A stretch of 39,946 nucleotides of DNA, taken from an uncultured Saprospiraceae bacterium. Lineage in GTDB: Bacteria > Bacteroidota > Bacteroidia > Chitinophagales > Saprospiraceae. The stretch spans positions 1 through 39,946 of the forward strand of contig CALIHL010000008.1 in NCBI GenBank assembly GCA_938022935.1, in the 5' to 3' direction. Each line of letters starts with the position of its first letter. The stretch's first letter is position 1. Positions 29,722-31,728 of the stretch are shown in pieces. Both the position numbers and the translations under genes were made by a program. The notes beneath the pieces are model-generated. The model saw nothing but the letters and a program-made list of their open reading frames with translations, had not been told where the DNA came from and ran no database searches.

Positions 29722-30624
29722 TTATCCTTCTTTTACTAATTCTAATCCTTGATCTGTCATCTTCCATATCTCAGAAGTTATATCTCCGTCGCCATGACGA
29801 AAGCTTCTATCTCTGAAGATTTTTGATCTTCTGTTCAGCGCCAGCTGTGTGCCTTGAGGGACAGATATTTGATATCTATAGCTTTGGCTACGCCATTTGT
29901 CTCTATTGGAGATAGTATAGTAATCGTCGAGCGAAAGCTGATTGTCTTTAAGGGAGACATTATGTGATGGATAGTAAGTGTTTCTCTTGGCAGCACGATC
30001 GTTCATACCACGACTGTATGTTGTTCTAACCACTCTTACCTTATCATCTTCTGAAGGTATAAAGTCAACTTTTATATCATCATAATTGTAAAATCGCCCA
30101 TCAGTAAAGAAGGCTCCTCCAAATTGTATTTTCATTTTACTGAAGTACTGTGGGCTTGCTAATTCTATATTGAGTGGTTGATCTGGATCAGCGTGTACCT
30201 CCGAGATAGTCTCGGTCACAGAGGACTCGTACAAGAAGTTACGAGCTGTAAAAGCTGCCGTTAAAGCGAAAATCATAAAGGATACAATCCACACGCTTGC
30301 GATAGCATACCTGAACTTTGGATTTCTCTTGTATCTCCAGATGTAACTGACTCCTAAGCGAATCAAAACGATCAAAGGGATAATTAGAAAAGCAGTTATA
30401 CCTGCATAAAATCCTATGTAACCACTGACCGCTGGATCAGGAGTTATCATTGTTATATAGGGCAAACCGAAGTGCCCAGAGATTAATAGCGCTGTAAAGA
30501 AAATAGCGATAGCCCCAATCGCTATCAGGGCTATCACTTTAACAAATCTACTAACTATATATACTACAAAACTGACTGTTGATGCAATGAAACCTCCGAA
30601 GCTTTTTAAAACTTTGGAGACCAT
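29722..30624 (-). CDS. C-terminal half of a PspC-type protein, in a different frame
   Basis: The 300-residue open frame starts at ATG 30624. It encodes about three membrane helices (about 31-50, 68-88 and 107-126) and a C-terminal beta-rich domain (EVHADPDQPLNIELASPQYF onward). In Bacteroidetes PspC proteins this material normally follows the PspC domain in one chain. Reading upstream from the ATG without a stop, codons AGT ATA AAG CCC lead back to the A10 run at the end of the PspC frame, so the two are one gene divided by a -1 frame change. No Shine-Dalgarno precedes the ATG. Separate translation is possible but less likely than fusion. Confidence 0.8.
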   Translation of the reverse strand: MVSKVLKSFGGFIASTVSFVVYIVSRFVKVIALIAIGAIAIFFTALLISGHFGLPYITMITPDPAVSGYIGFYAGITAFLIIPLIVLIRLGVSYIWRYKRNPKFRYAIASVWIVSFMIFALTAAFTARNFLYESSVTETISEVHADPDQPLNIELASPQYFSKMKIQFGGAFFTDGRFYNYDDIKVDFIPSEDDKVRVVRTTYSRGMNDRAAKRNTYYPSHNVSLKDNQLSLDDYYTISNRDKWRSQSYRYQISVPQGTQLALNRRSKIFRDRSFRHGDGDITSEIWKMTDQGLELVKEG

Positions 30625-30636
30625 TGATTTTGCATT

Positions 30637-30669
30637 AGCCCCGACTTCGGGCTTTATACTTTTTTTTTT
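30637..30669 (-). other. Possible frameshift or slippage site: A10 run followed by a hairpin
   Basis: On the mRNA strand, ten A (30669 to 30660) end the PspC frame as TCA AAA AAA AAA GTA TAA. A heptamer A AAA AAA is in register for -1 slippage. Six bases later a hairpin AGCCC/GGGCT (30653-30649 with 30641-30637, seven-base loop) follows. The -1 frame runs open through the linker into the downstream gene. One extra A, by polymerase slippage or in the true genome, would also join them. Confidence 0.55.
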
Positions 30670-31304
30670 GAGTTGAACTCTTTAGTCATCTCACTGATGG
30701 TGTTGGTGAGATTATTAATCTCTTCTTCTACCTTTCGAGCGATGTTGGTGACATCTATCTTCTCACCTTTCATCGATAGCTTATCGCCGGATGACTTGGC
30801 TTCTGGTATCGCGATCCAAAGAACGAAATAGAGCATGATACCAACACCAGTGAAAAATGTAAAGACAAATAATATCCTTAACCACACCGGCTCGTTGATA
30901 CCGAAGTATGCTGATAAGCCAGAACAAACTCCTCCAATCACTTTTTCATCTGGGTCTCTAAACAAGCGCTTGCCTGTGGTATATGTTTTGGACTCGCCTT
31001 TAGCGTGACTCTTCTGTCCATTGTCTTTTATATGGTCCTCTTCTGTAGCGCCAAACTCTTCTGGCGTACCCATCACTTTTATAACTTTATCCACCTCTCT
31101 ACGCCCAACTATTGGTTGGCCTTTCAACTCTTCGTTAAAAAGTTCTGCTATTCTAATTTCTATATCTGCTATGATATCCTCACATCCCTCAGAGTTAGCA
31201 AAGTGCCTCTTTATCGTACTGAGGTACTTGTCCAACGTATGATAGGCGTCGTCATCTATCGTAAATGGATATCCGCCAAGGTTGATGTTAAATATTTTGT
31301 TCAT
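30654..31304 (-). CDS. pspC: PspC domain protein, N-terminal half
   Basis: The 216-residue frame begins MNKIFNINLGGYPFTIDDDA, the usual start of Bacteroidetes PspC proteins, with a helical N-terminal region to about residue 95. Next comes the PspC domain (LFRDPDEKVIGGVCSGLSAY, then a membrane helix ending VLWIAIPEAKSS). The tail is a coiled region (RKVEEEINNLTNTISEM) that normally continues into more membrane helices. Here it ends after SKKKV, at the A10 run. PspC proteins help sense or answer envelope stress. PadR lies 37 bases upstream on the same strand and probably controls it. Confidence 0.88.
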   Translation of the reverse strand: MNKIFNINLGGYPFTIDDDAYHTLDKYLSTIKRHFANSEGCEDIIADIEIRIAELFNEELKGQPIVGRREVDKVIKVMGTPEEFGATEEDHIKDNGQKSHAKGESKTYTTGKRLFRDPDEKVIGGVCSGLSAYFGINEPVWLRILFVFTFFTGVGIMLYFVLWIAIPEAKSSGDKLSMKGEKIDVTNIARKVEEEINNLTNTISEMTKEFNSKKKV

Positions 31305-31341: not shown

Positions 31342-31728
31342 CTACTTTACAGTTTTAGTAGTAGATTTTTTTGATGTTGTTTTCGTAGTTCTTGATGCCT
31401 TGGGCTTTACCATCGTTTTGGTTACTGCCATATTAAGATCATTCCAAGTATCACGAAGTCCTTCTAAAAACGACTGCCCTTCTTTTGTGAGCTGATAGTA
31501 TTTACGAGGGGGACCCGAAGTGGACTCTTTCCACTCATAACTCAATAAGTCAGCGTTCTTAAGCCGTGATAGCAGTGGATACATCGTACCCTCTACAACG
31601 ATCAGCTTTGCTTCCTTCAGCTTATTTAAGATATCTGAAGGATAAGCCTCTTTTTGAGATATAATAGAAAGCACGCATAGCTCTAAGATCCCTTTTCTCA
31701 TTTGTGCTTTAGTGTTCTCGATCGTCAT
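31342..31728 (-). CDS. PadR-family transcriptional regulator
   Basis: The 128-residue protein is a winged-helix repressor of the PadR family: RKGILELCVLSIISQKEAYP for the first helices, VVEGTMYPLLSRLKNADLL for the recognition helix, and GPPRKYYQLTKEGQSFL for the wing. A Lys/Thr-rich tail follows (KASRTTKTTSKKSTTKTVK). I use ATG at 31728, preceded by AAAGAGATCATT. A longer frame to 31779 would begin inside the -33 element of the matching promoter, so it is not used. PadR genes commonly precede PspC genes in Bacteroidetes, and self-repression is likely. Confidence 0.92.
   Translation of the reverse strand: MTIENTKAQMRKGILELCVLSIISQKEAYPSDILNKLKEAKLIVVEGTMYPLLSRLKNADLLSYEWKESTSGPPRKYYQLTKEGQSFLEGLRDTWNDLNMAVTKTMVKPKASRTTKTTSKKSTTKTVK

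Follow-up and report, generated by a model that had tools for sequence, protein, structure and literature searches.

A pspC locus interrupted at a run of ten adenines

The window analysed here is a 39,946-nt stretch from a Saprospiraceae genome (G000), a draft assembly of 4.06 Mb in 231 contigs that is 84% complete. It carries a minus-strand pspC gene whose first open reading frame (ORF1) ends AAC TCA AAA AAA AAA GTA TAA, closing just past a run of ten adenines (A10), while the −1 frame stays free of stops from the run through twelve codons to an ATG at 30624 and onward to 29722 (Table 1). An earlier sequence-only reading had described this arrangement, including the A10 ending, the open −1 frame and a joined chain of about 527 residues, and each element was recovered here, with ORF1 contributing 212 residues and the −1 frame 315. 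Its attribution of the second frame to the C-terminal half of PspC is likewise borne out by two Pfam matches, LiaI-LiaF-TM_PspC and Toast-rack_PspC-Cterm.

The predicted product would be a PadR-coupled membrane-stress sensor. A PadR-like gene adjoins pspC in 49 of 49 related loci, and the HAAS domain near the N-terminus is a putative partner of this regulator; HAAS–PadR pairing has been described in membrane-stress systems in which PspC, LiaI-LiaF-TM and Toastrack domains form one multidomain protein (PMC11237479). The HAAS match is weak, falling under the Pfam curated cut-off both in the window and in L043 (E 7.3e-5), a relative whose run lies in frame; in the same relative, PspC and Toast-rack were matched by Pfam, and a LiaI-LiaF-TM match did not reach E 0.001. 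The long form would add the LiaI-LiaF region, with its multiple TM segments, and a toast-rack domain proposed to act as an assembly platform beneath the membrane (PMC11237479), and short forms would consist of HAAS and PspC only.

Table 1. Features of the pspC locus, with positions counted in the 39,946-nt window
Feature	Position	Strand	Basis or comment
padR (PadR-like regulator)	31342..31728	−	Directly upstream of pspC; Pfam PF03551, E 1.5e-17
pspC ORF1	30654..31304	−	216-aa short product with HAAS-like and PspC domains and a cytoplasmic linker that ends SKKKV-stop
Putative HAAS domain, residues 26-85	31050..31229	−	Pfam PF22564, E 4.5e-4, under curated cut-off
PspC membrane domain, residues 112-169	30798..30971	−	Pfam PF04024, E 2.3e-21
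A10 run, candidate frame switch	30660..30669	−	Sequence; relatives carry A9-A11 at the equivalent place
Frame-0 stop	30654..30656	−	One codon past the A10 run
ORF2, −1 frame continuation	29722..30660	−	C-terminal half of the long product
ORF2 stretch counted from ATG	30624..29722	−	300 aa
LiaI-LiaF-TM_PspC multi-TM region	30235..30642	−	Pfam PF22571, E 1.4e-8
Toast-rack_PspC-Cterm domain	29740..30102	−	Pfam PF22744, E 1.9e-15
5-bp hairpin, six bases 3′ of the A10 run	30637..30653	−	Sequence; judged incidental

The run is conserved at one linker across Saprospiraceae

The pspC run is the sole A10 in the window. Dinucleotide-shuffled versions of the window contain 0.32 such runs on average, with at least one in 20 of 100 shuffles; a single A10 per 40 kb is by itself not improbable. 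What does exceed chance is the conservation of the run at the pspC site, together with a genome-wide scarcity of long homopolymers: G000 holds only 4 A/T runs of 10 or more against ~32 expected when the shuffle figure of the window is scaled to the genome, an approximately 8-fold depletion of the kind expected where such runs slip (PMC1088944). The poly-A tract is also not a by-product of a lysine-rich linker. Lysine is encoded by AAA 62% of the time in these pspC genes, and other KKK triplets within them are all-AAA in 0 of 19 cases. A control linker in coaBC, unrelated and lysine-rich in some relatives, carries nine or more A in only 7 of the 30 genomes compared.

We read the frames past the linker in 169 Saprospiraceae pspC genes, locating the C-terminal half with a profile grown from the window's sequence. 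Metagenome assemblies make up nearly all of the named genomes; GYS_P2D (L035; A10, long form in −1), whose record has no MAG label, is an exception, and AG-470-E04 (L051), which has a single-cell-like name, is possibly another. A run of A9-A11 occupies the equivalent linker, at codon ~201-241, in 129 of the 169 genes, and is kept in ~58 genera, a count that, like all genus counts here (made by group codes, g numbers), is only partly independent owing to shared ancestry. Among the 118 genomes that retain the C-terminal half, 110 have such a run and the remaining 8 have none. Run lengths in those 110 are 9, 10 or 11 only, without a single A7, A8, A12 or longer tract. A further 19 genomes have the run with no C-terminal half found, a few of these loci ending at contig edges, and 32 of 169 have neither.

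Past the run, the C-terminal half lies in frame −1 in 61 genomes (31 genera), in frame 0 in 47 (23 genera) and in frame +1 in 2 (2 genera), and the −1 offset occurs with each run length of 9, 10 and 11. In the window's genus it lies in −1 in 6 of 6 genomes; the run there is nine or ten A long and occurs in two registers, and all six have a frame 0 that ends in KKK[V/A/P]-stop. Outside the family, pspC occupies one reading frame throughout in Flavobacteriaceae and in most of the other families sampled, and several other families of the same order have an A9/A10 run in frame 0. Many loci from Flavobacteriaceae and allies (L244-L270) contain an A8-A9 run of their own at codon 182-187, inside an NIEKK motif.

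These counts bear on two of the possibilities raised in the sequence-only reading, namely that the break is an inactivating frameshift or a miscount of A in assembly, so that the gene would really be one ordinary ORF. The draft state of the window genome gives this idea some purchase, yet the same split recurs in 31 genera with A9, A10 and A11, all of them at the −1 offset. Runs in in-frame relatives from the same collection are not systematically shortened, the frame-0 tails described below are under selection, and in 61 of 61 genomes the profile of the C-terminal half detects ORF2 at E ≤ 1e-31. The comparative data, through both conservation and dual coding, refute a miscount or pseudogene, and we regard either as very improbable.

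Two separate genes, the second with its own start codon, would also account for the window, where an ATG (30624) follows twelve codons past the run. Such starts are not conserved: an ATG lies within 25 codons of the run in 7 of the 61 genomes, and any ATG, GTG or TTG in 19 of 61. Both halves belong to a single chain in 55 genomes, of which 47 have an in-frame run and 8 have no run. A search of 20 genomes for the C-terminal half at other loci found none in 19; the exception, G018, has it in frame. The pattern that would have marked independent genes, with separate starts and no A run, is therefore not what relatives display, and we give a separate downstream gene a practically negligible chance.

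The register drifts while the run is retained

On the pspC tree, at least 18 changes in the register of the C-terminal half can be counted. Within g62, species have the long form in 0, −1 and +1, and registers are mixed within g3, g48, g64, g65 and g85. The run thus most likely gains or loses an A by mutation from time to time, and the change is tolerated, most likely because slippage keeps every product available.

The same drift is what DNA-level phase variation would produce, in which the run would serve as a contingency tract, lengthened or shortened by replication slippage, and different cells would make different single isoforms. Both the mixed genera and the number of register changes speak for it, and some of the switching between related species, which reflects mutation of the run in the DNA, may be genetic. 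Against it, run length is confined to 9-11, and registers agree within genera in 114 of 176 pairs, where shuffled labels give 85.6 (p 0.002; one genome compared per species). The window's genus, moreover, has its long form in −1 in 6 of 6 genomes despite A9/A10 variation and register changes. As a full account of the locus we consider phase variation unlikely.

A conserved C-terminal tail overlaps the long form

In 54 genomes from 23 genera, a second conserved ending can be reached through the run: a tail of the form P-L/Y-R/P-K/R-G-F/Y-x-x-stop. It lies one frame off the long form on identical bases, and has been found in frames 0, −1 and +1. Read in the long frame, the same bases encode residues such as A-L-K-K-G-I-S-L-L-G, just ahead of the first membrane helix. 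The linkers between run and tail span from a few to ~40 codons and show no obvious alignment from one genus to the next, which tempers the concern that shared ancestry links the genera.

To estimate how often such tails would arise from the long-form coding constraint, we resampled synonymous codons of the long frame using local codon usage with amino acids held fixed. Strict tails with the stop in place numbered 13.6 observed versus 0.024 expected (genus-averaged over 50 genera); the tail pattern was set after the data had been viewed, and weight is accordingly placed on the size of this excess and not on a p-value. Judged by this comparison of sequences, the frame-0 tails are under selection. 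Independent support comes from four genera that keep tail and run after loss of the C-terminal half, namely g16 (G020), g83 (G087, G235), g85 (G089, G237) and g155 (G251, G300, G333, G379); 8 of these 9 genomes have the tail in −1. A scan of 150 genomes for the tail DNA pattern returned 9 matches, 8 of them pspC tails; the ninth was a short chance ORF ahead of another gene.

The tail is conserved through its stop and is expected to lie on the cytoplasmic side, past the lysine run, where it may serve as a binding or degradation signal. The window's own genus lacks it, leaving two outcomes there, KKKV-stop or the long form.

Possible slippage by RNA polymerase or by the ribosome

From the comparative sequence evidence, we infer that the A10 run is probably a programmed transcriptional slippage site under selection, through which one pspC gene would give rise to several HAAS-PspC isoforms. 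RNA polymerase would stutter at A10 and generate a pool of mRNAs with 9, 10, 11 or more A. In the window, unaltered mRNA would encode the short HAAS-PspC protein ending in KKKV, and mRNA with one added A (or two fewer) would encode the 527-residue form with its LiaI-LiaF-TM region and toast-rack domain. In many relatives, the adjacent frame would yield a short form with the conserved tail, on bases shared with the beginning of the membrane region in the long form. The isoform ratio would be fixed by slippage, with the N-terminal, PadR-coupling part common to all products and the C-terminal sensing or assembly part differing among them.

Several observations favour RNA polymerase as the agent. 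Shift direction that varies among orthologues is a sign of transcriptional realignment and not of ribosomal frameshifting (PMC3711429), and pspC orthologues have the long form in −1, 0 or +1 and the tail in 0, −1 or +1; by this criterion, the variable product frame argues for polymerase slippage. The locus also has two recognised attributes of realignment genes, a homopolymer of at least 8-9 A/T conserved among orthologues, and conserved coding in the shifted frame past the run, seen both in the 61 genomes (31 genera) with a −1 C-terminal half and in the tails. Where a run accompanies the C-terminal half it is invariably 9-11 A long, though for frameshifting by ribosomes seven A would be enough; this too points to the polymerase, as does the failure to find a conserved stimulator.

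The principal competitor places the slip in translation: by programmed −1 frameshifting of the ribosome, or its sliding, on the three AAA lysine codons, a homogeneous mRNA would give both products. It would also produce the preponderance of long forms in −1 over those in +1 (61 versus 2 genomes), a point against polymerase slippage, and E. coli ribosomes do slide on poly-A (PMC4363877). The slippery A_AAA_AAA to which the sequence-only reading drew attention is indeed present in register, but it discriminates nothing, since any A9 run has one. Had the heptamer sufficed, runs of 7-8 A might be expected, and they are absent among genes with the C-terminal half. There is no single conserved direction of shift: in many genera the long form lies in 0 or +1, or the tail in −1 or +1. 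In length, 110 of 129 runs fall short of the 11 A given as the lower limit for sliding by E. coli ribosomes (PMC4363877).

Neither test for a stimulator of ribosomal frameshifting returned one. The hairpin noted 3′ of the window's run exists (at 30653-30637), but no general role follows, as among the relatives examined only the nearest, G001, shares it, and G002-G004 lack it. Folding of the 60 nt 3′ of the run shows no excess in the −1 group (z −0.54, compared with −0.43 for in-frame genes and −0.70 for a control stretch), which rejects a downstream hairpin as stimulator. Upstream Shine-Dalgarno-like sites, present in 12 of 61 genes against 20 of 61 in the control, are not enriched, and this candidate was discarded as well. 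Overall we hold ribosomal frameshifting or sliding to be improbable, if a shade less so than phase variation, and of the four options in the sequence-only reading, polymerase slippage yielding short and long PspC emerges as the best supported.

Family-wide, transcriptional slippage at this site may well amount to a three-way frame switch between a long form, a bare short form and a short form with a dual-coded tail, a reading we think somewhat likelier than the alternatives to it. The set of products would then stay constant while the genomic register drifts freely, which would make it nearly irrelevant which product is in frame in any given genome.

Comparison with known slippage systems

The closest precedent is Thermus thermophilus dnaX, where transcriptional slippage occurs on an A9 run (PMC3711429). 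There, as proposed for pspC, one gene with poly-A at a domain border makes a long and a short host protein from mRNAs of mixed A content. dnaX is a different gene in a different phylum, pspC differs in that its register drifts among relatives, and the alternative pspC frame encodes a C-terminal tail that overlaps the long form and is under selection. Realignment transposases, of the IS630 type and others (PMC1088944, PMC3711429), share the poly-A tract and have orthologues in which a −1 or a +1 shift gives the complete protein, whereas pspC is a chromosomal sensor gene outside mobile elements and has three readable outcomes. Shigella spa13 and mxiE, cited in PMC5009743 and PMC3711429, are regulatory or structural genes of the host in which a C-terminal extension is reported to depend on slippage; they are unrelated to pspC, whose conservation spans tens of genera.

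The HAAS-PadR, PspC, LiaI-LiaF-TM and Toastrack systems (PMC11237479) have the same domains in a single chain and an adjoining PadR-like regulator, but are presented as one multidomain protein, and frameshifting is not mentioned in that paper. Contingency loci resemble pspC in having a coding homopolymer whose register differs between relatives, and differ from its narrow length range and selected alternative frames. Our literature search found nothing on PspC frameshifts or on slippage in Saprospiraceae.

Other runs and implications

Two further runs in G000 drew attention. In coaBC (C133:45741), an in-frame A10 (SKKK) falls exactly at the CoaC/CoaB domain border; among the loci examined (L232, L280-L284, L300, L308), A10 occurs in 4 of 5 matched genomes of the window's genus (G000, G001, G003 and G005, not G002), and elsewhere G024 has A9, while G098 and G100 have A10. 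If slippage took place at this border, CoaC would be made by itself, making it a possible second site like pspC. A T14 run (C175:32671, L238) divides an FG-GAP-like repeat protein between two frames, with 360 codons before the run and 281 after it; this could be a surface protein that is phase-variable or read by slippage.

Genes of this kind would be called frameshifted, or split in two, by annotation pipelines, and yet in pspC the broken-looking arrangement is the conserved state in dozens of genera. If the proposed reading is true, pspC would be a clear and widespread case of a cellular signalling gene, belonging to neither a transposon nor a virus, that uses poly-A slippage and carries overlapping coding past the slip. 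It would offer a testable handle on how membrane-stress sensors set their isoform ratios, and on whether the RNA polymerase of this phylum slips on A9-A10.
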